A program made the position numbers and the translations under genes. A DNA stretch of 32,888 bases, taken from positions 1 to 32,888 of the IMG/VR virus record IMGVR_UViG_3300035191_000015. One strand, 5' to 3'. This DNA is from a virus. The notes under the pieces were generated by a model. That model worked only from the letters and a program-made list of their open reading frames with translations. It was not told the origin of the DNA and did not search any database. Shown here one piece after another: positions 20 to 18,505 of the stretch; position 1 is the first letter of the stretch, and every line of letters starts with the position of its first letter.

Positions 20-305
20 TTCCGCCCCCCTTAGCCAGCACCCAACCGCGACCGTTGCAGTAGAAGCATGGTGCCATTTTGCCCTCGTAGAGAATCGAGG
101 CATACGGGCTGTCGCCACTCCCGCCGCAGGTTGGACAGACATCAACTTCAGGTAATTCAGCGTGAGATGGTTTTGTGTAAAACATAACCCTTCCTACCGG
201 CACCAGCAGGTGTGTGCCGTTGGGGTCGTCAGTAATTGCGTCGGCATGGTCCGCGTAATCGCGTCCGGGTTTTTTATGCACATTCACAATCCGCACGTCA
301 CTCAT
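12..305 (-). CDS. Small DnaJ-type zinc-finger protein (97 aa)
   Basis: The C-terminal half carries two CxxCxGxG motifs (CPTCGGSG and CFYCNGRG) about 17 residues apart. This is the pattern of the DnaJ central cysteine-rich zinc finger. No J-domain is present, and the N-terminal half is unremarkable. The ATG at 305 overlaps the stop of the helicase-loader gene as ATGA and has GGAGG six bases upstream, so the start is well supported. In phages such short DnaJ-finger proteins are common near replication genes and their role is unknown. Zinc binding is a family-level inference; the protein could act in nucleic-acid or protein binding. Confidence 0.75.
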   Translation of the reverse strand: MSDVRIVNVHKKPGRDYADHADAITDDPNGTHLLVPVGRVMFYTKPSHAELPEVDVCPTCGGSGDSPYASILYEGKMAPCFYCNGRGWVLAKGGGNE

Positions 306-1108
306 CCCATCCTCCGATCTCCGAAGCCCCGCGTGGAGATGTGAAGCGCCTGTTGGAGTCGAGAGGCCAAGCGTGGTTCGACGTTCTCGAAGTCATTCAG
401 CGTCCAGTTGGTGGTGAGGAGCGTGACGAGCCCACGATCCAGGCGGTTGAGCAGGAACCCGATCAACGTGTTGCGGCCCGCCGTCTCGATCGACAAATCC
501 TGTCCCCAGTCGTCCAGGATGAGGAACCGATCCTTCGTGAACTCCTCGAGCGGATCTCGCATGGAGTAGTCCGAGATCCGTTTCACCAGGCCGGCACAGT
601 GGACGAAGTGGCAACCATCCGTTCCCTGCGTCTTCACCCGCCGCCGCAGGGTCGCAATCGCCATGTGGGTCTTTCCCGTCCCTGGAGGGCCGCCGAGGAT
701 GCACACGCGCTCCGGCTTTCCCTGCCACGTCTGGAGGTGCGCGATCCGCCGCGCCATGAGGGCGTGACGCTTCTGGTTCGGCATGTCGAAGTTCTTCCAA
801 GTCGAGCGGACCAGGCCAGCGGGTACGCCGACCTGGAGGAGCTGCTCTTGGATCGTCTTCACCGCGCCATGCTTCTTGTCGAACTCATCCACGCACTCAT
901 CGCAGACCCCCGGCCAGTAAATCTTGGTGTTGCAACCGACACACTGATAGCTCGCGTGGCCGAACAGCGCCTTGCACTTCTCCTCGTCGCTCAAGGCCGG
1001 GTTCTCGAGGATTGCCACGGCCTCCGGGTTTGCGGCTCGACGCACGGCCCCATCTAGGGCCTTCTCCGGCTTCGGTGGGTCGTTCCTAGGTGGTGTTCGC
1101 GGCTTCAT
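302..1108 (-). CDS. DnaC-like helicase loader ATPase (268 aa)
   Basis: This is an AAA+ ATPase. Walker A is GGPPGTGKT at residues 139-147, Walker B is FLILDD at 195-200, a sensor-1-like TTN lies at 232-234 and an Arg-finger-like SRL near 249-251. An N-terminal zinc-finger-like set (C56, C59, C69, C72) precedes the ATPase core. Size and order match DnaC/IstB-type loaders, which deliver the replicative helicase to an origin in the cytoplasm. The gene overlaps the end of the replication initiator gene by 23 bases, the same initiator-loader arrangement as lambda O and P. The ribosome binding site is weak, so coupling to upstream translation is likely. No helicase gene is visible, so a host helicase may be recruited (inference). 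Confidence 0.88.
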   Translation of the reverse strand: MKPRTPPRNDPPKPEKALDGAVRRAANPEAVAILENPALSDEEKCKALFGHASYQCVGCNTKIYWPGVCDECVDEFDKKHGAVKTIQEQLLQVGVPAGLVRSTWKNFDMPNQKRHALMARRIAHLQTWQGKPERVCILGGPPGTGKTHMAIATLRRRVKTQGTDGCHFVHCAGLVKRISDYSMRDPLEEFTKDRFLILDDWGQDLSIETAGRNTLIGFLLNRLDRGLVTLLTTNWTLNDFENVEPRLASRLQQALHISTRGFGDRRMG

Positions 1109-1997
1109 CGCCTAGCCCCTGACTCTCGAGCCATTCCTTCTCCTCCGGGGTGGGCTCGTGGAACTCCCGGAGTTTCGTCGTCCCTCGCTCCCCGATGTAC
1201 GAGCTCTTGCCCTTGGCGCTGCGGTCGGTGGGCTCGTCGTCCCAACCACCACCGCGCAACCAGGTGCTCATGTAGGGGATGTATTTCATCTCCTGATGCG
1301 CCCACTCCCTCACCCCGAACTCGATGATCTTCGCCCTCACAGCCTCGTCGCCGGGGTAGTCCTTGCCCTTCCTGGCGGCGATGATCGCCTTGTGAGCATC
1401 CTTCTTGTCCTTCTTGCGGGGGTAGTTGGTCCACATCTCCACGAAGGCCGGGTCTTTTGCGTACTGCCCTGGCTTGATTTGCGGTGGCTTCCGCGCCGGA
1501 GGTGCGGGAGTATTAGGTAACTCGTTAGAGTTACCGTTATCTACTTCTACCTCTACCTCTACTATGTCGTTACTTTTCGTTACGTCATCGTTACCGATCG
1601 TTACATCGGCGTTACCGTGCGTTACATCGCGTTTCCGTTCCCTGTAACGCTGCACACGTTCCCGCGTCTGTCTCCTCACCTCCTCAGCGTCCTTTAACCC
1701 TCTGTACTTGGCGTAGTTGACCACCTTGTACTGATTGTTGGCGATGTACCGCAAGCGGCAACCATCTTCCGCATCAGAGCTGGATTGCGGGTCCGGTTCC
1801 ATAAGCGCCTCGAGCGCCTCATCAGCTTGCTCGAGGGTTAGGTTGGCGCGGCGGGCCAGTGAGCCGACCGTCCCGTAAACCATGCCTTCTTTGTCGCACA
1901 GCACCAGGAGAGTGACCCACATCCAACGAATGTGGAGTGGAGTCTCCGCGATGGTTGAATCGAGTATGTGGCTGTAAACCTTGACGAAGTGCGGCAT
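1086..1997 (-). CDS. Winged-helix replication initiator (303 aa)
   Basis: The N-terminal 100 residues look like the helix-turn-helix replication proteins of phages (pattern KVYSHILDSTIAE, then LLVLCDKEGMV, then GSLARRANLT), a fold related to replisome organisers and lambda O. A basic stretch (RRQTRERVQRYRERKR, about 108-123) is followed by a seven-residue repeat DVTxxNx at residues 124-144 and an acidic VEVEVEV run. A Pro-rich linker leads to a C-terminal domain (about 180-290) that may contact the helicase loader encoded next. The repeat in the protein is the coding image of 21-base DNA iterons, so the gene probably contains its own origin. The start at 1997 has GGGGAGGG upstream. Initiator function is inferred from fold-like sequence and neighbours. 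Confidence 0.78.
   Translation of the reverse strand: MPHFVKVYSHILDSTIAETPLHIRWMWVTLLVLCDKEGMVYGTVGSLARRANLTLEQADEALEALMEPDPQSSSDAEDGCRLRYIANNQYKVVNYAKYRGLKDAEEVRRQTRERVQRYRERKRDVTHGNADVTIGNDDVTKSNDIVEVEVEVDNGNSNELPNTPAPPARKPPQIKPGQYAKDPAFVEMWTNYPRKKDKKDAHKAIIAARKGKDYPGDEAVRAKIIEFGVREWAHQEMKYIPYMSTWLRGGGWDDEPTDRSAKGKSSYIGERGTTKLREFHEPTPEEKEWLESQGLGDEAANTT
1516..1635. other. Candidate replication origin inside the initiator gene
   Basis: Three elements sit together. The first is the phased iteron array at 1566-1628. The second is a run of near-identical hexamers (TTCTAC, CTCTAC, CTCTAC) at 1541-1562. The third is a perfect inverted repeat with eight-base arms GGTAACTC and GAGTTACC around a four-base centre at 1516-1535, which again carries the GTAAC core. 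The stretch is clearly richer in A and T than its surroundings, as expected of an unwinding element. The layout parallels lambda ori within gene O. Origin activity is inferred, not shown. Confidence 0.6.
1566..1628 (-). repeat. Three 21-base iterons with helically phased CGTTAC boxes
   Basis: On the plus strand the hexamer CGTTAC occurs at 1568, 1578, 1589, 1599, 1610 and 1620. The spacings are 10, 11, 10, 11 and 10, about one DNA turn. Read on the minus strand this forms three 21-base units (1608-1628, 1587-1607, 1566-1586), each starting GATGTAACG or GACGTAACG and containing a second GTAACG. An imperfect copy (CGTTTC at 1630) follows. The units lie in frame within the initiator gene and encode three copies of DVTxxNx. 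Such phased boxes are typical of initiator binding sites. Confidence 0.85.
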
Positions 1998-2778: not shown

Positions 2779-2976
2779 TCACTCTCCGTGGATCTTGAGC
2801 TGGTGGCCCTCGACCATGCCCTGAACGAATGACAGCGTTTCAGTGAGACGCCGAATGTCGGCGAGCATGTCCTTGAGCAGCTCGACCAGCTGCGGATTGT
2901 TAGGCCCGACCGCCTGAATGACGGCCCGGTCGTCGTATTTCCCGCTCTGGCACCACTCCTGCCTATCCATTGCCAT
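2779..2976 (-). CDS. Small helical protein of unknown function (65 aa)
   Basis: The protein is short and mostly helical; the second half (LVELLKDMLADIRRLTETLSF) has heptad-like leucines. No family is recognised. Two ATG codons (2976 and 2970) are possible; the first has AGAAGG immediately upstream and both overlap the end of the RecT gene. The overlap and the tight spacing to the next gene place it in the recombination operon. Confidence 0.6.
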   Translation of the reverse strand: MAMDRQEWCQSGKYDDRAVIQAVGPNNPQLVELLKDMLADIRRLTETLSFVQGMVEGHQLKIHGE

Positions 2977-4063
2977 TGGCCTTCTCCGCGTTCTCCTCGG
3001 CTTGCTCGACGAAGGACACCAGCGCGGCCTTGAAGTCCGGTCGATCGTTCACCTCGAGCTTGTCGATCTGTTTGCACTCGAACGTGTCGAGGATCTTGCA
3101 CACGTCGGCGGCGAACTCCACCTCGGGGATCTCCCATCCGACCTTCGTGTAGGCGGCCACGCCTCGAGCGACGAGCTCCTCGTACTGTTTGCGCCAGTTG
3201 GACGGCTTCCCGGCTTTGATCTCCATCGTCATACGCAGGAGATAGTCCTCATTCGCCGTCTGGACCTGGGGGGCTAGTTCGGGCGGCTCGGGGGCCTCCG
3301 GCTCGTCTGAGGGCGGTTCTGGCTCCTCCTGGGGGGTATCTTCGACCACCTCGGCGTCTTGAACGTCGGCCGGGGGTGCGGGGAGCTCCTCCGGGATCGG
3401 CGTTTCGACCTGGAGCTCGGCGACCTGAGCCTCGAGGCCCGTGAGGGGGTCTTTGATCGTCTGGACCTCAACGGCCTCTACGTCGTTGCCGTCGAGCTCC
3501 TCGCGCAGATAGACGCCGCGCAGGACGTCCGGGAACAGGTCGCGCAGCACGAACCCTCGAGCCCTCATCTGCATCATGCGCTCGGGGTACTGTTTCCACG
3601 GCCCCGCCTTGTCCCATAGGCCGGCACGTTGCGCCATTTTGACCGTGAACCGATGTTTGGCCGAGTCGCCGTTGGTGCGCTCCGCGTAACAGTCGTAGCC
3701 CATGATCTCGCCGTCGTCGTTGATGACGGGGTCCTCTTGGAACTTCGCCATTGCCCCAGAGGCCCGCACCACGCCGAGTGCAGCGTCACCCCAAACAGAG
3801 GGACGCCCGTTGATGACCGCGATGTTCTGGACTGACGCCATCGGCGGGAGGCCGATCTCCATCCCGAGCTCCATCGCCACGAACACCTGAGCTGCGCTGG
3901 TGAAGTGCTTGGGGATCATGCCGGAGTTCGCGAAGATGTGCGCGATCCGGTACATCTGATCAAAGTCCTTCGGGACCAGGCCGCCCGTGATCTTGCCGCC
4001 AGTCATGACAACCGGCTTTGGGTCAGCCTTTGCGAGTTTCGTTTCAGTCGATGATTCGGACAC
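2963..4063 (-). CDS. recT: RecT-family single-strand annealing protein with C-terminal extension (366 aa)
   Basis: The N-terminal 200 residues match the RecT family: KDFDQMYRIAHIFANSGMIP, then AMELGMEIGLPPMASVQNIA, then NGRPSVWGDA. RecT proteins anneal complementary single strands and work with a partner 5'-3' exonuclease, here the gene at 4954-5925. After the annealase core comes a Pro/Glu-rich, probably disordered linker of about 60 residues, then a separate C-terminal domain of roughly 110 residues ending in a charged tail. A GTG at 4063 is chosen as start because AAGGAAGGG lies just upstream; an upstream extension to 4138 has no such signal. The gene overlaps the preceding small gene by 20 bases. 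The extension is unusual and may bind a partner protein. Confidence 0.88.
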   Translation of the reverse strand: MSESSTETKLAKADPKPVVMTGGKITGGLVPKDFDQMYRIAHIFANSGMIPKHFTSAAQVFVAMELGMEIGLPPMASVQNIAVINGRPSVWGDAALGVVRASGAMAKFQEDPVINDDGEIMGYDCYAERTNGDSAKHRFTVKMAQRAGLWDKAGPWKQYPERMMQMRARGFVLRDLFPDVLRGVYLREELDGNDVEAVEVQTIKDPLTGLEAQVAELQVETPIPEELPAPPADVQDAEVVEDTPQEEPEPPSDEPEAPEPPELAPQVQTANEDYLLRMTMEIKAGKPSNWRKQYEELVARGVAAYTKVGWEIPEVEFAADVCKILDTFECKQIDKLEVNDRPDFKAALVSFVEQAEENAEKANGNG

Positions 4064-4289
4064 GTTGCCCTTCCTTTCTGACCGCCTTCCACGGCGGTAT
4101 GTCTTCGTCCATGAGGTGGACCCGGTCGTAGTCGTCACGCCCTACGGCCCAATCGTTGCCCACGGCCTCGATCCGCACCATGCGATAGATGCGGCTACAG
4201 ATGTAGACGACCTGGCCGACGCGCAGAAAGTCGAAAGGGACCTTCTGCGATGGCTCGACCATCTCGTATTCCATGTCGAGGTCGGTCAC
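4044..4289 (-). CDS. Small protein of unknown function (81 aa)
   Basis: I do not recognise this protein. It contains a short beta-rich pattern (FLRVGQVVYIC, then YRMVRIEAVGNDWAVGR), compatible with a small SH3-like or OB-like barrel. A GTG start at 4289 overlaps the previous stop as GTGA and has GGAGGA four bases upstream. Placement between the exonuclease and RecT genes suggests an accessory role in recombination, but there is no direct evidence. Confidence 0.65.
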   Translation of the reverse strand: MTDLDMEYEMVEPSQKVPFDFLRVGQVVYICSRIYRMVRIEAVGNDWAVGRDDYDRVHLMDEDIPPWKAVRKEGQRVRIID

Positions 4290-4660: not shown

Positions 4661-4954
4661 TCACGGCTCCTCCGGGTACTGTTCGAGCACCTCCAACAGC
4701 TTGTCGAGGTGCGAGTTAGCGTTGCGTTTGAAGGCCCGTAGGCCCTGGTTGTATCGGGTGACCCGCTCCAGGTCCGGGATGGTCTCCGGGGGATCGTCCA
4801 CGAGGGTTTTCGCCTCAACACAGAGACGGCGGGCCTCCTCGTAGGTGCGGATCGAGTCCTGGAGCATGTGGAGCGCCTCTTTGTAGAGCCGCCGAATCTC
4901 GGTGGCCTTGAGCTCCTCCGGTGTCGGGGGTGGGTCGTTGCCGAAGATCCCCAT
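4661..4954 (-). CDS. Helical protein of unknown function (97 aa)
   Basis: The protein begins MGIFGNDPPPTPEEL and continues as charged helices, probably a coiled coil or helical hairpin (about residues 16-50 and 62-93). The ATG at 4954 overlaps the stop of the exonuclease gene as TGATG, so translation is probably coupled. I do not recognise the family. It could be a small partner of the recombination proteins. Confidence 0.65.
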   Translation of the reverse strand: MGIFGNDPPPTPEELKATEIRRLYKEALHMLQDSIRTYEEARRLCVEAKTLVDDPPETIPDLERVTRYNQGLRAFKRNANSHLDKLLEVLEQYPEEP

Positions 4955-5925
4955 CAGTACACCCTCAACGTGATCTTCCCTTTGACGATCTTCTGGTACT
5001 TCGCGTACACGTCCGGGAGATCGCGCTTGATGGCCGCCGAGTCGATCCGCTTCTGGTGCGTCTCGTACATGACGAGGCCGCGCCCGTCGATCTTCACCTT
5101 GCGCGGCTTGTCGCCGAGATGCAGCCGGATCTTCTCCCTGGCCTTCTCGCGGAGCTCCTTGGCCTGGTTCAGCACCTCATCGACGCGGTCGTACTCCTCG
5201 AGCATCATCCGCAAAGCGTTGTCGTCGAGCTCCTCCGCCGCGCCCTCGGCCTTCTCGAACTGCGGGTTGAAGGCGGCACCCTGACAGGTCAACCTCCAGG
5301 CGCACTTCTGGCACCGCTTGTCTTCGGGCATGAGGCGATCCGGCGCGGGGCCGTTCTCGACCATCCGCCAGAACCGATCGCCGGCAATCATCATTTGGTC
5401 GATCGCCTTCATGTCCCACTTCACCTCGGCGAAGTACCATTGCCAGCTCACCGGCTCGAGGGCCGCATAGAGCGCCCACTCCCACCCGGTCAGCTGGAGG
5501 TAGTGTTGCAGCTGGAGGATCTCGCGCTCCGGCACACCCTCCGACTGGAGGGCCTTGAACGGCCACGGGCCTTTGGTCTTTGCCTCGAAGACACCCGTAG
5601 CGTGATCGGAGTCACCCACCACCATGCGGTCGGGGTGACCGATCCACCACTCCGGGAGCTCGCGAACGGAAAGGCGGCCAACCTTGCGGAGCTTCACGCC
5701 GATTCTTTCCTCCGTACCATCGGCGACGAGCTGCTCCATGAGGTGGCCGCGCTCAAAGTAGGCCGGACGCTCTACCGGGAAGTCCTGCGGCTCCTGCCGC
5801 TTCTCGTACCAGAGCCTCCGGGAGCATCCGTAGGGCTCGAGGCCCAGAACATCACTCCAGTCGGACCCTCCTATTCCACGCAGCCGCTCCTCCTCGAACG
5901 CTGCGCGGTCGAATGATTCCGCCAT
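4954..5925 (-). CDS. YqaJ/RecB-type 5'-3' exonuclease with cysteine cluster (323 aa)
   Basis: The protein has the marks of the YqaJ/lambda-exonuclease PD-(D/E)XK nucleases. IGGSD is at residues 18-22. The catalytic set is D99 (GHPD), E114 and K116 (FEAK). QLQHY follows at 138-142. It also has one early cysteine (C34 in GCSRRLW) and three later ones in CxxC-x5-C (C205, C208, C214). The same layout holds an iron-sulphur cluster in AddB, Cas4 and Dna2 nucleases. It should resect double-strand ends to make single strands for the RecT protein encoded downstream. The ATG at 5925 has AGAAGGGA upstream. The exonuclease call is strong; the Fe-S cluster is inferred from cysteine spacing. Confidence 0.85.
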   Translation of the reverse strand: MAESFDRAAFEEERLRGIGGSDWSDVLGLEPYGCSRRLWYEKRQEPQDFPVERPAYFERGHLMEQLVADGTEERIGVKLRKVGRLSVRELPEWWIGHPDRMVVGDSDHATGVFEAKTKGPWPFKALQSEGVPEREILQLQHYLQLTGWEWALYAALEPVSWQWYFAEVKWDMKAIDQMMIAGDRFWRMVENGPAPDRLMPEDKRCQKCAWRLTCQGAAFNPQFEKAEGAAEELDDNALRMMLEEYDRVDEVLNQAKELREKAREKIRLHLGDKPRKVKIDGRGLVMYETHQKRIDSAAIKRDLPDVYAKYQKIVKGKITLRVY

Positions 5926-9853: not shown

Positions 9854-10301
9854 CCGGCATCTCGGGGATAGCCGGGACGGAAACGGCCACACACCACGTA
9901 TCCTCGAGCGCCGTTATACGGTGTTGGATTCCAGGCGAGATGAAGATGTGTTGCCCGGAACGAATGATTCTCACCTCGTTCCCGTCGCATTCGCATTTGA
10001 AGGCTCCCCGGTACACGATGATCCACTCGTTCTCGAGGTGTGAGTGAAGCCCCAAAACGCCCCCCTCAGGGACATGCGACTGCGCCACCGCCACCTCTTT
10101 CTCTATGTTGAGAAGGTTGTAAGCGGTGGCTTGGCTTCCGTCCTCCAGGTCGTATTTCGCGATGGACGGAGCCTCGGCGATTTTGTGGGTGAGCTCTTTG
10201 AGCTTCCCTAGGTATTTCGGATCGGATGGCAACTCGACCTCCTCGTAACTTGTGGTCAGACTCAGCATTTTGGAAATTGGTGGAATGCTGGCGGTGCTCA
10301 T
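9843..10301 (-). CDS. Cupin-domain protein (152 aa)
   Basis: The first cupin motif is clear: GGVLGLHSHLENEWIIVYRG, with H86, H88 and E92 as metal ligands and G99 closing. The second motif SPGIQH supplies H127. A single cupin barrel occupies about residues 70-145, after a 60-residue helical lead. Cupins bind a metal and act as enzymes, sensors or structural folds; the substrate cannot be guessed. The start overlaps the stop of the giant gene as ATGA, so it is expressed late. It may be a virion component or act on the host during late infection. Confidence 0.82.
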   Translation of the reverse strand: MSTASIPPISKMLSLTTSYEEVELPSDPKYLGKLKELTHKIAEAPSIAKYDLEDGSQATAYNLLNIEKEVAVAQSHVPEGGVLGLHSHLENEWIIVYRGAFKCECDGNEVRIIRSGQHIFISPGIQHRITALEDTWCVAVSVPAIPEMPDGR

Positions 10302-13300
10302 CGTTTGGATCTCCTTCCAAGGAGTGCCTCGTCCGCCTTCCTCATCTCCTCGATCATCTGTTCATCTTCTTTCCGGTTCACCCGACTGGCCGCCCTCTGC
10401 CACGGGTCACCGAAATACCTCCAACGCAATGTCTGAATGCGTGTCGTGAGCTTTTTGTGGCCCTTGTCGTCCTTGTAGGCCGGCTCGACACCAGAGGCGA
10501 GGAACCGAGCTTGTACCGCCCGATCGCTCATTGAAGGGTCACGTTTCAGGATCTCAAGGATCATTTTGTCTCGCTCGAGGGTCCGGGCCGACCGGATTTC
10601 CCTCTCGGCCATGATGGACTCCCAGATCTTCTCCTGCAAGCCGTAGTCCGACACTTTGATGAACCGCTTGAGCAGCTGGTTCAGGCCGGGGATGCGGGTG
10701 GCCCTCTCAAGCTCGCTACCTGGATCTCCCTGATTCTCGGTGTTGAAGTCGAACAGGACGTGGAGCCCGAGATTGTTCCAGGTGTGTTTCAGCATGTAGG
10801 AGCGCATTTCGCTGCGGTTCCCTGTCTTGAATACCGACTCTGGGATCACCGGGCGTCCTCGATAGAAGTCCTGCGGGTTCTGTCCGGTCGCGTACTGCCC
10901 CCATTGCCGCATGACGTCCACGTAGGGATTGAGGCTTCCGAGCCCGAACGGGAAGTTCTGATTGAAGGTGTGCCAGAAGTCTTGGAGAAAGTCTTCGCGA
11001 TCGGTGAGGGTCTTCCAGAAGATCGCGCCCAATGCCTGCGAGATGTGGTCCTCAGGGAACCTCAGATAGACGGCCTTGCCGTCTTTGGTGAGCCCGAGCG
11101 GAACAATCTGGTAATTCGCCTTGTCGTGGTCCGGGATGCGATCGAATACCGCCTTGAGTCCAGGGCCGAGCAACCCGGCAGCCCCAAAACCGAGCATCAT
11201 CTTGGGGAACAGGGTGTACCAGAAGATCTTCTGCGCGTAGACAGCCGGATCTTTATCGGCGGCCTCTGTGGACGTCCGTATGTCCTGCGCGGCCACGTTC
11301 GAGAACAGCCATACCGAGTTGTAGACCTTCTTGGCATCACCCCCGGCCATAATGTCCGGCGTCCCCACTGAACGCCTCGTCAAGCTCGCAATCTCCGGCA
11401 TGGTGAGGCCGAGCTCGTGGCGGTGTTCCTTGAGGTAGCGATACCCGGCAATCTTCACCACGCGCTCCGTGAGCTGGCCTGGATCGGACAGGAGGCGCGA
11501 AATGCGGTTGAGGGTGTTGTGGACCACGTTCTCGTGATCCTGTGGCTTGAGCCCGTACCGCTCGAGCAGGAGCCTCGACGCCTCCTCCTCTGTAATGTCG
11601 CCAGCTTTCCAGAACCGGAGGCCGGTCTGAATCAGAGCTCGATTCTTGAGCATCTCCCTCACAATCGGAGTGCGTGTGTCGCGGTAGACGTCCTTCCATG
11701 CGTCAGGAAGCGCCCGCCAGAGCTCGTAGGTGACCTGAGCCACCGGAGTGAGCGGATCGACCATGCGGATCTTCTTGCCGCCTGGGAGCGGGACCTCGAC
11801 GATTTTCCCGACCGGGAGCTTTTTCAGGAAGGCTTTCGTGTCGCGCTGAATGTTCCAGATCGGCCAGAACGGGTTGTGGTCAACCATGACCGCACGTAGA
11901 GCTCGTGTCGCCAACGCCCACTGACGGTGGAGCTGGCCGGACCCCTTCGGCGATTTCAGCCCTTTTGCAAAGTCCTTCGGGATGTACGCTCCCATCATCG
12001 TGCCGTGAGACAGCCACCGGACGAGCTCGTACTCCGCCCCGTCCACACCCCTTGCGTCCTGCGCCTGGAGATAATGCTTTCGGCCTCGAGCTCCACGCTT
12101 GAACTGACCGTCAATCACCTTCTCCGGGAAGAACTCACGGAGCCAAGCGATCGCCTCGCTCACCGCCTGGTTGCGGTGGGCCATGCGAAGCATCGCCACG
12201 TCCTTGAGCACCGTTTCCACGAGCGGGTTCCCAATTTCCTTGAGCGTCCCGACCTGCGGGTATACCCACCCGTCCGGCAGATCCTCGAGAAAGTCGATGA
12301 CCTGATAGGTCGAATAACCGTGTACGGAGTCCCGCATGTGTTTCAAAAGCGAAGGCTTCAACATCTTCGCTTCCTCAACCATGTTGAATAGCTGGTGCCT
12401 CATGCCGGCGAAGCCCTCGAGGGCCTGCATGATGACTTCCTGGTCCTCGACTGAGAACCGCTGTTTCAGCTTGTCGAGGGTCCGCTGCGCGTACTCACCA
12501 CTCAGGCCGAGGGGGTTCGCCTTGCTCGCACGGCCGCCGAGCTCCTCGTCAACGGCAGCTCGTTTCAACCCGAGCCAGCCGCCGAGCTCGACGTCCGACA
12601 TGATCTGGCGCACCGGGCCGAGCACCTCTGCGGTCCATAGGTCGAGGTACCAGGCGATGGCGCTGTTGTGGTAGAGCATCTCCTCCAGCTTGAACAGCGG
12701 GTCCTTGGCTGGATCGTATTTCCTGGCCTTTTTCAGCGCCCTCCGGGCGTTGTACCAACTCTGTTTCGACTCGAGCATTGTGTGGAGGATCGACTGCGCC
12801 AAATTGAGGCCCTCACGCCGTTTCGTGAGCTCCTGCATGCGCTTTTCCTCGCCCTTTGCCACCATCTCGAGGTATCGCTGAAGTCGGTGATCGTCGAGCA
12901 TGTCCCTGTCACTGGCAAGCTGCTGGAGATCCTGCCACGTCGCCTGAAACTCCGGTTTCGCGTCCATCCACCCGAGAAGCATGTCGTAGGTGGTCGGAGC
13001 CCTCTGCTTCACCAGGGCCGGGTCATTCAGGAAGGCCGAAATGACGTCCGCGTAGACCTCTTTGCCGTTCTTCCGGTACTTGAGGTAGGAGGCCGAGGGG
13101 TTGTCGCCGAGGGGTCGCCATTCTACCGAGAGGCCCCACGTCTCGTTCCAGATCTCCTCTTTGGTGACCAGGTCGCGCTTTTTCAGCTCCTCGTACAAGA
13201 GCTCGCGGAACCGCTGTTCCGGGTTGGTGAACTTGACGCGCTTCACCTTGATCTTCTTGCCGGTGTACTCGCGCACCGTTTTCCCGAACCGCTTGAGCTC

Positions 13301-16300
13301 GTCCGGCACCATGCCCTTCATGGCCTGTTGGATGATCGCCTTCTTCTGGGCGGTGTTGAGGCCCTTGATGAACGTGTGAAGCTCCTCCGGGGCCGTGGGG
13401 GTGTACATCTGCCAGATCGAAAGAATGTCTTCCGGCGTGACGCCGATCGTCTTTTCGATGAACTCCTCGATTTCCTCCTCGTACTCGATCCGCGTTTCCT
13501 TCTTGGCCTGTTTCCGCAGCCGATCGCGGTCTTGTTTCGAGATGAAGTCCACCGGCTCCGTGGGAAGCCTGGAGATTGTGTGTTTCAGGTACTTCACGAG
13601 CCCTGCAATGCGCCCAAGGATGTTCCCACGGCTCAGGGTGCCTTCCGGCAGGAAGTCGATCCAGTGGCCGATCTCGTGCGCCAGCGTGGATGCTGCCTGA
13701 TGCGGATCGCGGAAGATCGCCGCCTGGAGCTGGATCTCGCCGGAGCGCCGATCGCCCTTCTTGTGCTGGAACATGCCTCGCACGAACGGGTTCCGCGCCA
13801 CCAGGCGCTTGACCTTCGGGAACTTGCCCTTGCCGAGCGCAACCGCGAGCTCAACGAGCTCGGGGAAGGCCAGCGAGAAGACGTCCCGCTCATGTGTCTT
13901 CCGGCCCTCCGGGATGACGCCAGCGATCTCCGGGCTCGGGTCTTCGCCGGAGCCCTTCACGTCTCGTTCCCCGGTCCTGGCCGCCGCATAGTCTCCGAGG
14001 GAGGCGTTGTTAGCTCCCCCGGTGGGCTGCGTCGGTGGGCTGTCCAGGCCCTTGACCACGAGCTCCCCGTCTTCAACGGGGTACCACATTGCGATCCCGG
14101 CGAGCTCGTCGTTCTTGAAGAACGCCACCATGCTCTTGTTGTCAGCGTTCTTGTCGTAGCGGACCTCGTCGAACTCAATCGCCTCTTTCATGAACTCGTG
14201 AGTGTCCAGGCGCAGGGTCCGATCAGGGATGATCTCGCCTTTCTCGTCCACGAACACCGCGTAGCCCACCGACTCAGGAACGAACGTGTTCTTCTCGCCG
14301 ATCGAGCCGTAAATCTCACGGTGCGTGGTGTAGATCTGGTAGCCGAGGAACTCTGCCTTGTCGGTGAACTTCCGGGCCTGGTCCACGATTCTTTTGGCAT
14401 CCGGCTTTTTCGAGACGTCTTCCTTGATTTTCTTGACGTGCTTGCCTGCCGGAGTGTTGAGCAGCGCATCTTGCGAGATCCAGAACTCGCCGTTCGTCCA
14501 ATCCCCCTGTTCCGTCTTGTAAGACGTCTTCCGTTCGGGGAATGCCGCTGTTTTCGAGTAGTGCATCTTCGCACCGAGCGCAGGAACCGAGAATTTCTTC
14601 GGCTTCACCCTCGTGGAGTTAATCGTCGAGCTCGTCATTTTCGCCGGCTTGTGATCTTTCAGCGAGAACATGGGGTGTTTCGAGGGCTTTTTGCCGGTCA
14701 TGGTGTAGATGAAGTCCGCGACACCCTTCGGGTTTAGATAGAAGGTGCCATCTTCCGGGACGGCCATTTTCACGATGATCGGCTCATCTTGTGGAACAAT
14801 TTCTTTCTTCTTCAAGCGGTCGAAATAGGCATCCTCGAGCTCCTGGTTCCAGACCTTGGGCAAATTCTCCTTGATCCACTTTTCCTGAGTTGCCGAAAAC
14901 CCTCGAGCTGTGGGGTTGACCTTGGAACCCTTCGTCCCCACAACGCTCCTCGCATCGCCCGTGACCTCGATGACCTTCGGGCCTTGCGTTGCGGCAGGGC
15001 CAGTCTCCATCGTCTTGATCTCGTCAAGCGTGAGTCGATCGCCCTTTTCAGCCTGCGCCCAGATTTCGTTGGCAAGGCTCGTTGCGCTCTCGAGCTTGAA
15101 CGGAACGGACGTAATCACGAATGGGCGGACGTCCGGGCGTTTCAACACCACGGCCCATTTGCTCAACCCGCCATGCTGCGCCTTCGAGTAGTCCGGGTGC
15201 TGGCGTATGAGCATCCTCTCGCCGGCCCATTCAATCCATCTGTCCCTGGCGCGGTACTTGAGCTTCTTGACTGCGTCCTCGCGTGAGCCGGGGAAGGCAA
15301 CATCTTCCTTCTCTTTCGGCTTCGGTGTAACGACCTCCTCGACGGGGGGCTCGGGAATCTCTTTTCCGGCTCCGCCGTAATGCTTGTCGATCTGTTCGCG
15401 AACGCGAGTTTTCATGTCCCACACGGCCCAAGCTCGGGCCTCCTGCTCAGACGTGAACTTCCCGTTGCGCCCACCACGTATCGTGTCGAGATTGTTCCCC
15501 GCCTCCGGGGTGTACCAATCGCGCTCGACGGTCCAGTAGTTGTCGGACTGTGGGTCCTGAAGCACCTCATAGGCGAAATGCGGAGGATCCTCGAGATCTA
15601 CAGGCCACACCGCATGTTTCATGTCACCGTAGCCCTTGTCGGAGATCCGGTCGAGCTCGATCTGGAGCCGTTCCATCAGGCTTCGATAGGTCTTTGCGCG
15701 ACTGGCTTTGGTGGGAGCCGCTTTTCCTGGTGCCTCGGCCTGCCCTGTGTAGGTGAAACGCGCACGTAGTTGCTTTTCCGTGAACGAGTGCTTGTGGTTG
15801 TCATCGAACAGGAGTTGGTAGTTGATGATCCCCTTCTTGTTGGGTGTGGCTTTGAGAATCTGCACTCCCATGCCGTCGCGGTTGCGCTTCCACTTCGCGC
15901 CGATCTGGAGTTGGTCCTCGCGCTCGGCTTTCGGGACCTCACCAAGAGTGAAAACGGGCATCATCCCGCTTTCTTGCTGCATGGTGATCTCGTTGTCCCG
16001 AACCATGTTCTCTAGGAGTTCGGAGTACGGCTTCTTGGCCGTCATCGGTTCCTCGAGGCCGCGAATGATCTCGTTGATCGCCAGAGGGCCGTCCGCTTGT
16101 TCGAGCAGAGTGATGATGTCTTCTTTCGCCCGCTGCCGAAAACCGCTGTCCGTGTCTTGGATCTCTTTGACGAGCTGGTCGATCGTAAGGCCCTTTGCCC
16201 AATCGGAAACAACGGCGTCTTGCGGCACGACGTCCCCGCCGTACCACTCGCGGAGCTCGGCGGCCATCTTTTCGGGATCGCGCAGAGCTCCAAGGTAGGT

Positions 16301-18505
16301 CGGGTCCTCCTGTGGCTTGCGCCCGCGCTTTTTGTAGGGCAGCTCGCCTTTTACTTCTTTCGGGGTCGGGGCTTCGGCCGGGGCCGCTTCTTGCCCTTTT
16401 TGCAAGGCATCTGGACCTCCCTTCTGTTCCGGTGGGGCTGCGCTCTTTTCGCGCATGTCGTCTCGAATCCAGCGCAGCGCAGCATCTCGATTCCCGAACT
16501 TTTTTTCGCCATCGTCACGGAAGAACTCCCGGTTCCCATTCATGACGCGCTCGACGGTGTATTGGTAATCACCTTCTCGCACGATCTTGTAGGACAGCTT
16601 CGGCCCGCCTGGGAGATTGAAGTACGCGAAACCGCGTTCCTTGAGGCGCTTGAGCGTCTGGGTCATGGCCTCGGAGATTTCCTCGTCCCCTGGCCGCTGC
16701 GGCGTCGGCACGGCGGCCTCTACGGCGGCCTCCGCCTCGCCCGGTTCTCTCGGGGTGTCGAGGAACTTGGCGAAGTTCCGAGCATCTTCCTCGATCGGCA
16801 ACGGCTCGGTGAGCACCGATTTCCCGTCCTTGTCGAGCACGAGCCACCCACCCTCTGGGTGTTCCTCGACCGTGTGGGGGCCTCTGGGCGCTTCCTCAAC
16901 ACCCTCCGAAACCTTTTTCAGTCGATAGCCAAGCTGACCGGCTCGCTCGAGCTGCTCGACGCGGCCCGCATCACGAAGGGCGTACACGGCCTCCTCGACC
17001 TGGTCGAGCGGCTGCTCCCTCAACCGCGCAGCGGCGATGATCTCCTCCGCCGTCCACACCTTGTCTTCACCGGCAAGGATGCTCATCACAGTCTCTTTTG
17101 CGGCCTCGAGTGGGCCTGCCTTTTCCTTCGGTGGGAGCTCGGGGACGTCCTCCGGCTTCACCTGGCGCTCGAGGGAACGCCTGACTGTGAACAACTCAAG
17201 CTGCGCTTCCTCGATCTGGTCTTTGGGGACTCCCATCATCTCGGCGGCCTGGAAGTCCGAAATCATGTTGGAAGCCCACATCGACAACGTGCGGTTGTCC
17301 TGTTTCAGCCAGTCCGGCGCTCGCCGCATCAAGTCGATCTGGTAGCCCTCTGGAGCCTCGGGCCTTGCAGCACGTCTACGGTTCTCAAATTCGGGCGCAG
17401 GACGGCTCGGAGCCTCTGGGGGTACCTGGGGGGCACCCCCGGCCCCCGGCGGCTGTTCTGGCGGCCTGGAGGGCGCTGGTGGGGCTTCTGCGGGCGGTTC
17501 TGTGTCCGGTGGTAGACGGAGATCCGTCTTTTCCGCCCTCTGAATCGTCTTTTCGCCCTTTTTCCACGCCTTCTCGATCTGTTTCACCCTTGCAAGGTCA
17601 CCCGCCTCCACCGCCGCGTTGAGCTCACCCATCATCTGCGTTCGGTACTCGACCTCCGCTCGAGTCGCGTTCTTCCCCGCGAAATCGGGGTGCATCTCTC
17701 GAGCCAGCTTCTTGCCTCGAGCTGCAAGGCGACGAGCTGCCGCCTCGTTGAAGCCTTTGACCATGAGGAACCGCACGACGTCATCGACTGCCGCATGGGC
17801 CAGTCCGAGCGCAGCAACACTCGCCGCCCCGCCGCCGATGTTGAGGATTGCGCTTTCCGGGGTTGCCTCACCTTGCGTGATCTCTTTTGCCGTTTCGAGG
17901 GCTCCAGCGCCAGCACCGAACCGGCCTCCTGCCGCTGTCCGCTCGAGGAGAGTCGGGAGGGCTCCAGCGCCGCGCTTCATGGCGGCCACTTCTCCAGCAC
18001 CAGGCCCAAAAGCACCTGTTGGGCCGAGCATCATCCACGGGGCCAGAGCTCCCATGAACGCGCCGAGCTCGGATTCGGCCGCGTGCTCGCCGAACTGTTC
18101 CGCTTGTGCGCCGAGGGCCTCCGCTCCTGCCTGGATCGGGTCATGACCAGGAATCACAGCTCCGAGAGCCTGTGCGGGAAGATTCGCAACATCTAGGAAC
18201 GTCTCGCCGGCACCGCCGTAGGCTCCCTCAATGAACTCTGCCGGGGTTGGGTCGTTCTCTGCCATCCAACGCGCAGCTGCCGCAGGGGCTCCGGTGAGCT
18301 TCTCGAAATACTCGCCGGGAGCCATCGTCGGCGGCTGTTCACGCTCCTGGACGGCCATCGCCGGGGGTTGGGCCGGGGGGGTGGCCTCAACCCAATCGGC
18401 AGGCGGCGCAGCAAGCGCCTGTTGGACGGCCCGATCTATCACATGATCCGGGGTCTCGTCCGGGAAATGGAGCCTGCGGCCGTCCGGGAGGTGGGCTGTT
18501 CTCAT
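10298..18505 (-). CDS. Giant polyvalent virion protein: J-like, zincin and LPD38 modules (2735 aa)
   Basis: This single frame takes a quarter of the window. Residues 1-30 form a short module (LPDGRRLHFPDETPDHVI) common at the start of phage polyvalent proteins. Residues 255-310 resemble a DnaJ J-domain, with HPD at 272-274 and ELNAAVEAGD after it. Pro-rich linkers separate winged-helix-like segments near 465-540 and 790-860. A zincin motif HEIGH lies at 1610-1614, with E1816 (KEVYAD) a likely third ligand. The long helical remainder, roughly 2190-2640, resembles LPD38 (large polyvalent protein-associated domain). The protein is probably packaged and ejected with the DNA, as N4 and T7 internal proteins are. 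The start overlaps the previous stop as ATGA. Module calls are by motif only. Confidence 0.8.
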   Translation of the reverse strand: MRTAHLPDGRRLHFPDETPDHVIDRAVQQALAAPPADWVEATPPAQPPAMAVQEREQPPTMAPGEYFEKLTGAPAAAARWMAENDPTPAEFIEGAYGGAGETFLDVANLPAQALGAVIPGHDPIQAGAEALGAQAEQFGEHAAESELGAFMGALAPWMMLGPTGAFGPGAGEVAAMKRGAGALPTLLERTAAGGRFGAGAGALETAKEITQGEATPESAILNIGGGAASVAALGLAHAAVDDVVRFLMVKGFNEAAARRLAARGKKLAREMHPDFAGKNATRAEVEYRTQMMGELNAAVEAGDLARVKQIEKAWKKGEKTIQRAEKTDLRLPPDTEPPAEAPPAPSRPPEQPPGAGGAPQVPPEAPSRPAPEFENRRRAARPEAPEGYQIDLMRRAPDWLKQDNRTLSMWASNMISDFQAAEMMGVPKDQIEEAQLELFTVRRSLERQVKPEDVPELPPKEKAGPLEAAKETVMSILAGEDKVWTAEEIIAAARLREQPLDQVEEAVYALRDAGRVEQLERAGQLGYRLKKVSEGVEEAPRGPHTVEEHPEGGWLVLDKDGKSVLTEPLPIEEDARNFAKFLDTPREPGEAEAAVEAAVPTPQRPGDEEISEAMTQTLKRLKERGFAYFNLPGGPKLSYKIVREGDYQYTVERVMNGNREFFRDDGEKKFGNRDAALRWIRDDMREKSAAPPEQKGGPDALQKGQEAAPAEAPTPKEVKGELPYKKRGRKPQEDPTYLGALRDPEKMAAELREWYGGDVVPQDAVVSDWAKGLTIDQLVKEIQDTDSGFRQRAKEDIITLLEQADGPLAINEIIRGLEEPMTAKKPYSELLENMVRDNEITMQQESGMMPVFTLGEVPKAEREDQLQIGAKWKRNRDGMGVQILKATPNKKGIINYQLLFDDNHKHSFTEKQLRARFTYTGQAEAPGKAAPTKASRAKTYRSLMERLQIELDRISDKGYGDMKHAVWPVDLEDPPHFAYEVLQDPQSDNYWTVERDWYTPEAGNNLDTIRGGRNGKFTSEQEARAWAVWDMKTRVREQIDKHYGGAGKEIPEPPVEEVVTPKPKEKEDVAFPGSREDAVKKLKYRARDRWIEWAGERMLIRQHPDYSKAQHGGLSKWAVVLKRPDVRPFVITSVPFKLESATSLANEIWAQAEKGDRLTLDEIKTMETGPAATQGPKVIEVTGDARSVVGTKGSKVNPTARGFSATQEKWIKENLPKVWNQELEDAYFDRLKKKEIVPQDEPIIVKMAVPEDGTFYLNPKGVADFIYTMTGKKPSKHPMFSLKDHKPAKMTSSTINSTRVKPKKFSVPALGAKMHYSKTAAFPERKTSYKTEQGDWTNGEFWISQDALLNTPAGKHVKKIKEDVSKKPDAKRIVDQARKFTDKAEFLGYQIYTTHREIYGSIGEKNTFVPESVGYAVFVDEKGEIIPDRTLRLDTHEFMKEAIEFDEVRYDKNADNKSMVAFFKNDELAGIAMWYPVEDGELVVKGLDSPPTQPTGGANNASLGDYAAARTGERDVKGSGEDPSPEIAGVIPEGRKTHERDVFSLAFPELVELAVALGKGKFPKVKRLVARNPFVRGMFQHKKGDRRSGEIQLQAAIFRDPHQAASTLAHEIGHWIDFLPEGTLSRGNILGRIAGLVKYLKHTISRLPTEPVDFISKQDRDRLRKQAKKETRIEYEEEIEEFIEKTIGVTPEDILSIWQMYTPTAPEELHTFIKGLNTAQKKAIIQQAMKGMVPDELKRFGKTVREYTGKKIKVKRVKFTNPEQRFRELLYEELKKRDLVTKEEIWNETWGLSVEWRPLGDNPSASYLKYRKNGKEVYADVISAFLNDPALVKQRAPTTYDMLLGWMDAKPEFQATWQDLQQLASDRDMLDDHRLQRYLEMVAKGEEKRMQELTKRREGLNLAQSILHTMLESKQSWYNARRALKKARKYDPAKDPLFKLEEMLYHNSAIAWYLDLWTAEVLGPVRQIMSDVELGGWLGLKRAAVDEELGGRASKANPLGLSGEYAQRTLDKLKQRFSVEDQEVIMQALEGFAGMRHQLFNMVEEAKMLKPSLLKHMRDSVHGYSTYQVIDFLEDLPDGWVYPQVGTLKEIGNPLVETVLKDVAMLRMAHRNQAVSEAIAWLREFFPEKVIDGQFKRGARGRKHYLQAQDARGVDGAEYELVRWLSHGTMMGAYIPKDFAKGLKSPKGSGQLHRQWALATRALRAVMVDHNPFWPIWNIQRDTKAFLKKLPVGKIVEVPLPGGKKIRMVDPLTPVAQVTYELWRALPDAWKDVYRDTRTPIVREMLKNRALIQTGLRFWKAGDITEEEASRLLLERYGLKPQDHENVVHNTLNRISRLLSDPGQLTERVVKIAGYRYLKEHRHELGLTMPEIASLTRRSVGTPDIMAGGDAKKVYNSVWLFSNVAAQDIRTSTEAADKDPAVYAQKIFWYTLFPKMMLGFGAAGLLGPGLKAVFDRIPDHDKANYQIVPLGLTKDGKAVYLRFPEDHISQALGAIFWKTLTDREDFLQDFWHTFNQNFPFGLGSLNPYVDVMRQWGQYATGQNPQDFYRGRPVIPESVFKTGNRSEMRSYMLKHTWNNLGLHVLFDFNTENQGDPGSELERATRIPGLNQLLKRFIKVSDYGLQEKIWESIMAEREIRSARTLERDKMILEILKRDPSMSDRAVQARFLASGVEPAYKDDKGHKKLTTRIQTLRWRYFGDPWQRAASRVNRKEDEQMIEEMRKADEALLGRRSKR

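Follow-up and report, generated by a model that had tools for sequence, protein, structure and literature searches.

The window, which is the whole stretch of 32,888 nucleotides analysed here, contains the complete viral record. Two adjoining replication genes lie on its minus strand. The product of the first (303 residues) matched the replication-initiation families phrog_9474 (E 6e-15), phrog_270 (6e-12) and phrog_9327, and the end of this gene is overlapped by a DnaC/IstB-like helicase loader gene (phrog_50, E 1e-21), so that both gene calls of the original prediction stand. A loader gene adjoining the initiator gene is also what is found at origins of the lambda/SPP1 type. The features of the locus are the following:

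302–1108, minus strand: gene for the DnaC/IstB-like helicase loader.
1086–1997, minus strand: phage replication initiator gene, 303 aa, with a winged-helix N-domain, a basic helix, a box-bearing linker and a C-terminal domain.
1516–1535, no strand: palindrome with 8-bp arms and two inverted GTAAC cores, insignificant as a hairpin.
1536–1565, minus strand: AT- and purine-rich trinucleotide tract, ATA GTA GAG GTA GAG GTA GAA GTA GAT AAC.
1568–1625, minus strand: array of six GTAACG boxes (gene strand) at 10/11-nt spacing, read alternately V-T and [G/S]-N.
1629–1997, minus strand: N-terminal winged-helix domain and long basic helix, aa 1–123 (AlphaFold2 model, Foldseek).
1644–1649, minus strand: one further box, inverted relative to the array (CGTTAC when read on the minus strand) and separated from it by 18 nt.

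Upstream of the initiator gene and in the same orientation, genes for a RecT-like annealing protein (2963–4138) and a RecE-like exonuclease (4954–5925) were observed. An ORF of 2735 residues at 10,298–18,505 occupies a quarter of the record. Scans of viral contigs with single proteins returned no relatives of the initiator or of the loader, and two N-domain queries retrieved no named phage at E 0.01.

The six exact copies of CGTTAC start at positions 1568, 1578, 1589, 1599, 1610 and 1620, with spacings of 10, 11, 10, 11 and 10 nt. They form three 21-nt units at 1567–1629, which read RDVTHGNADVTIGNDDVTKSND on the minus strand and give three seven-residue units, DVTxxNx. The array was therefore as predicted, both in its boxes and units and in its location inside the initiator gene ahead of the loader gene; origins of the lambda/SPP1 type likewise carry direct repeats inside the coding sequence of the initiator. 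The total number of CGTTAC in the window was unremarkable (9 compared to 5.7 expected), and it was the clustering and phasing that were unusual. The longest chain of a 6-mer at 9–12 nt spacing had six copies, as opposed to three when the whole window was shuffled 200 times with dinucleotides preserved. Such a six-copy chain is not a chance event. When the same peptide was synonymously recoded, the observed phased count was matched with p = 0.002, the lowest value that the test can give.

The GTAACG box can be translated in two frames only, because the third contains the stop codon TAA. The two readings are GTA ACG (V-T) and xGT AAC Gxx ([C/G/S/R]-N-[A/D/E/G/V]). The alternation of 10 and 11 nt switches the array from one reading to the other, and DVTxxNx is therefore a single DNA word read twice, which is not expected of a repeat maintained at the protein level. 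The boxes thus encode the predicted heptapeptide.

The N-terminal domain was modelled by AlphaFold2 from an alignment of 67 N-domains (pLDDT 86). The model shows a helix-turn-helix (helices at aa 44–50 and 55–66) with a wing (strands at aa 82–84 and 89–92), followed by a basic helix of 28 residues. The best Foldseek matches were winged-helix regulators of the CRP, ArsR and MarR kinds, and since their E-values were only 0.02 and weaker the fold assignment is good, though distant. The winged-helix prediction holds at that level. Comparison with Phage_rep_org_N (PF09681) by hhalign gave a probability of 96.8 and an E-value of 3e-10 over 107 columns. The whole window protein scored 16.5 bits against the PF09681 HMM, below the gathering cut-off of 23.3. 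By profile comparison, the window N-domain is a distant homologue of Phage_rep_org_N. Among PDB sequences, no structure homologous to the N-domain was found; the top match, a DnaJ domain (E 6e-4), was probably due to chance and was rejected.

The array is followed by a tract of distinctive composition. The hexamer repeats GTA GAG GTA GAG GTA GAA GTA GAT occupy 1539–1562 on the gene strand and are preceded by ATA. The AT content of the tract is 0.60, compared to 0.40 in the remainder of the initiator gene, and an AT-rich tract is again a trait of origins of this type. The 45 nt past the last box behave similarly in relatives: AT content is 0.57 compared to 0.42 in the rest of the gene and is higher in 47 of 47 genes, codons ending in A make up 66% as opposed to 16% elsewhere, the purine fraction is 0.64 as opposed to 0.54, and AG occurs at 42% of codon junctions in the tracts and at 6% elsewhere. 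By its place and composition, the tract is likely to be the unwinding element. The flanking elements of the prediction fared unequally. The hexamer repeats and the perfect palindrome, GGTAACTC-GTTA-GAGTTACC at 1516–1535, both exist as predicted, but the significance of the palindrome was rejected: the window holds 6 hairpins with eight-base arms compared to 4.7 in shuffles, which places it at chance level as a hairpin, and with GTTAC downstream of the boxes in 5 of 39 relatives it is not conserved. A switch of the cumulative GC skew had also been anticipated at the array; the minimum lies at 23.3 kb, and none was seen at 1.5 kb, so that the skew lends no support to an origin there.

IMG/VR was scanned for the exact pattern of three boxes at 10/11 spacing. 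At least 120 viral loci were found, compared to three for the reversed pattern. Among the matches listed, most arrays lay in the linker of replication initiators, at residues ~110–170 of ORFs of ~220–370 residues, preceded by a basic helix of the RERVRKHREKQ type and followed by an acidic dipeptide tract. About 20 of the proteins listed, fetched by the DNA pattern alone, matched the window protein with E < 1e-10; the box region contributes partly to these scores, and the best matches extend across the whole N-domain. In 388 bacterial genomes of the phylum of locus L206, the three-box pattern was not clearly enriched over its reverse: five genomes matched, several of them with simple tandem repeats. 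The enrichment of the pattern is thus a trait of viral contigs and not of bacterial chromosomes at large.

A second set was assembled without regard to the boxes, from N-domain alignments that excluded the linker, and comprised 66 viral and 16 genomic loci. Some of these relatives showed no recognisable array. Across the set, GTAAC was read 82 times as V-T, 72 times as x-N and never in the stop frame, as it must be. Among 61 non-redundant viral genes, the linker encoded V-T by GTAAC* in 70 of 103 cases, compared to 8 of 85 elsewhere in these genes (Fisher P 3e-17), and N was written xGT AAC in 57 of 159 cases in the linker and in 7 of 496 elsewhere (P 2e-31); these P values are optimistic because related phages were counted as independent. 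The V-T residues were consequently not kept through synonyms that break the boxes, the outcome that would have told against the prediction. The excess of phased boxes over synonymous recodings of the linker reached p<0.05 in 37 of 75 genes, one of which is that of the window, and p<0.01 in 25.

The gaps between boxes in the relatives were of 9 (5 cases), 10 (25), 11 (40) and 12 nt (1), and the longer ones were mostly of 19–21, 29–33 and 39–40 nt, apart from gaps of 13 and 48 nt and two of more than 90. Gaps are near multiples of the helical turn even across missing boxes; the 10.5-base phasing is claimed as approximate and not exact, because the period fitted to long gaps peaks near 9.4. Relatives without GTAAC often have another word in its place, again in both frames. 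GTAATG gives V-M and x-N (L141, L153, L159), GTGACG gives V-T and x-D (L161, L199), and GTAAGC gives V-S and C-K (L200), while the stop-free boxes GTGGAC and GTCGA are used in all three frames in L206 and L212. The boxes drift in concert across both frames. As the prediction had it, they persist near helical register in related phages while the amino acids drift. Because the residue changes of relatives match one box in two frames, DVTxxNx is a by-product of constraint on the DNA, as originally proposed, and the codon bias of the box-blind set agrees with this. In many phages, what selection preserves at the array is the DNA and not the protein. It is the box-blind set that carries the argument, and not single named phages, since the arrays of phi11, A500, phiEf11 and phiARI0923 were individually not significant in a whole-gene test over all 6-mers.

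Boxes were also seen outside the gene. A GTAAC pair or array lies there in 15 loci, in 14 of which one stands within ~250 bp upstream of the initiator start, and six of these 14 (L156, L158, L167, L175, L176 and L180) had no detected pair inside the gene. In locus L118, a nine-box array starts where a short N-domain ORF ends (~4.65–4.75 kb, reverse strand) and another ORF comes after it; this is apparently a split initiator with a non-coding array, or alternatively a frameshift or sequencing error. In L019 and L089, about a dozen GTAAC boxes lie between genes, away from any recognised initiator, and may be a second origin comparable to SPP1 oriR. The spacing in these three loci is mostly 11 nt or multiples of it. 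Four initiator genes (L005, L036, L055, L110) each carry two GTAACG arrays 282 nt apart, one in the linker and one within the N-domain region (~residue 50–80).

Several initiators that match the window protein solely in the C-domain were devoid of GTAAC arrays. Two initiators that share only the C-domain, from the Microbacterium phage Footloose (L130) and the Arthrobacter phage RedFox (L128), have other short linker repeats, read in all three frames: CCGTCC at spacings of 11, 11 and 13 in RedFox (p 0.027) and ACCCGA at 10 and 10 in Footloose (p 0.06), both in the whole-gene test over all 6-mers. In the same test, the linker repeats of Rousseau and Lagaffe were not significant. It is only suggestive, from these repeats, that the linker-as-origin design may be more general.

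Three other explanations of the boxes were weighed. It is unlikely that they are merely an operator, through which the initiator would repress or pace its own operon. The boxes upstream of the initiator in 14 of the 82 box-blind loci speak for such a function and could equally be operators, and the roles of operator and origin may coexist. Most arrays, however, lie ~370 nt inside the gene and are then followed by the conserved AT-rich tract, which is the layout of lambda, SPP1 and 80alpha, and the arrays of L019 and L089 stand between other genes.

Binding of the boxes by a host protein or another phage protein (partition, repressor or nucleoid) instead of the initiator is less probable still. 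It would fit the observation that, among the relatives, no recognition-helix residue clearly follows the changes of box type. But the array accompanies homologous N-domains in many hosts, in the gene or directly upstream of it, and is missing from several relatives that share only the C-domain with the window initiator. As for selection of DVTxxNx as a protein repeat of the linker, with the DNA repeat secondary, the three seven-residue units in the window are what it would explain. It is hardly credible given that it is chiefly in the linker that V and T are tied to the codons GTA ACN and N to xGT AAC, that the frame changes with the spacings of 10 and 11 nt, that variant boxes alter both readings at once and that arrays are found outside genes too.

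We propose that positions 1516–1649 are very probably the replication origin, of the lambda/SPP1/80alpha type, embedded in the linker-coding part of the initiator gene and composed of initiator boxes and an unwinding tract. Its activity is what we infer from the array and its phasing, the DNA-level selection, the companion tract, the winged-helix model and the loader gene. In this model, the winged-helix N-domain would bind the GTAACG boxes, one per helical turn, and the bound subunits would consequently stack on one face of the DNA. The stacked initiator would strain the adjoining AT- and purine-rich tract until it opens, and the DnaC-like loader, product of the next gene, would bring the host replicative helicase. 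The linker is presumed to be flexible enough to accept any peptide dictated by the boxes. A wider hypothesis, which is doubtful, is that the phage initiator superfamily shares one origin code, made of a 6-bp box per turn and a trinucleotide single-strand tract read base by base by the initiator or a partner, as an independently evolved phage counterpart of box-plus-trio opening. Such a code would be written through linker codons in every stop-free frame, with boxes that drift in concert or sit upstream.

Few phages have mapped origins. If the array is an origin, origins could be read from the initiator linkers of many uncultured phages, the DNA specificity of initiators could be deduced from sequence, and the puzzling VTxxN peptide repeat would be explained as a DNA code. 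The array also offers a clear example from nature of regulatory DNA that is spelled through codons in two or three frames. In a limited search of the open-access literature, GTAAC arrays in phage initiators were nowhere described. Origins within initiator genes are of a known kind; apparently new, as we found no account of it, is a box family with six bases per turn, two or three frames, concerted drift and a conserved companion tract, common to a large set of phage initiators.

The bacterial basal unwinding system resembles the locus in having double-strand boxes beside a tract with a 3'-GA-5' step at many third bases, and differs in that no DnaA box adjoins the window tract. The arrangement of DnaA-trios appears to be opposite, as the window tract runs 5' to 3' away from the boxes. 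The DnaA-trio consensus is 3'-GAT-5' (PMC10721633). The window tract has TAG steps, with a 3-nt period that codons could impose, and its polarity looks reversed relative to the DnaA-trio. The only perfect DnaA box of the window, TTATGCACA, is at 274–282, just past the loader gene and more than 1.2 kb from the tract; by our own estimate about one is expected by chance per window. A DnaA-trio reading was not adopted, on account of the polarity and of the lack of a DnaA box beside the tract.

In Staphylococcus phage 80alpha, deletion of ORF20 was not complementable in trans, and ORF20 and ORF21 were reported to be sufficient for autonomous replication (PMC5499656). The 80alpha record annotates a putative rep_origin inside gp20. 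The two loci share an origin deduced inside the initiator gene, a DnaC-like loader gene next to it and an AT-rich trinucleotide tract after the linker repeats. Because the N-domain is another one and the linker repeats, at 15 nt spacing, are without GTAAC boxes, 80alpha supports the principle and not the GTAAC box. SPP1 gp38 binds the direct repeats of oriL within gene 38, beside an AT-rich unwinding region (PMC6316719). The likeness is in an initiator gene that carries direct repeats next to an AT-rich unwinding element, the comparison being by description and not by box sequence; the difference is that SPP1 encodes its own helicase, gp40.

In lambda, the origin is made of iterons in the middle of gene O and an AT-rich tract, and gene P, for the loader, lies in the same region (PMC7466680). 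The predicted lambda-like logic fits: direct repeats stand in the middle of the initiator gene, an AT-rich tract flanks them and the loader gene is nearby. The window differs by its 6-bp boxes at each helical turn, as judged by description and not from the sequence of gene O. Lambda has four iterons and the Stx phages six, which are longer and of another sequence.

The closest likeness in boxes is with genes of the Phage_rep_org_N family. GTAACG arrays were found in such genes of the Staphylococcus phages phi11 and 71, the Enterococcus phages phiEf11 and VEsP-1 and the Streptococcus phages phiARI0923 and Javan242. Listeria phage A500 has a mixed GTAAC/GTTAC array, and Staphylococcus phage 187 and a Latilactobacillus sakei phage have GTCACG instead of GTAACG. 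Although the window protein stays below the Pfam cut-off, it shares with phi11, phiEf11 and VEsP-1 a homologous N-domain, a GTAACG array in the same place and an acidic tract after it.
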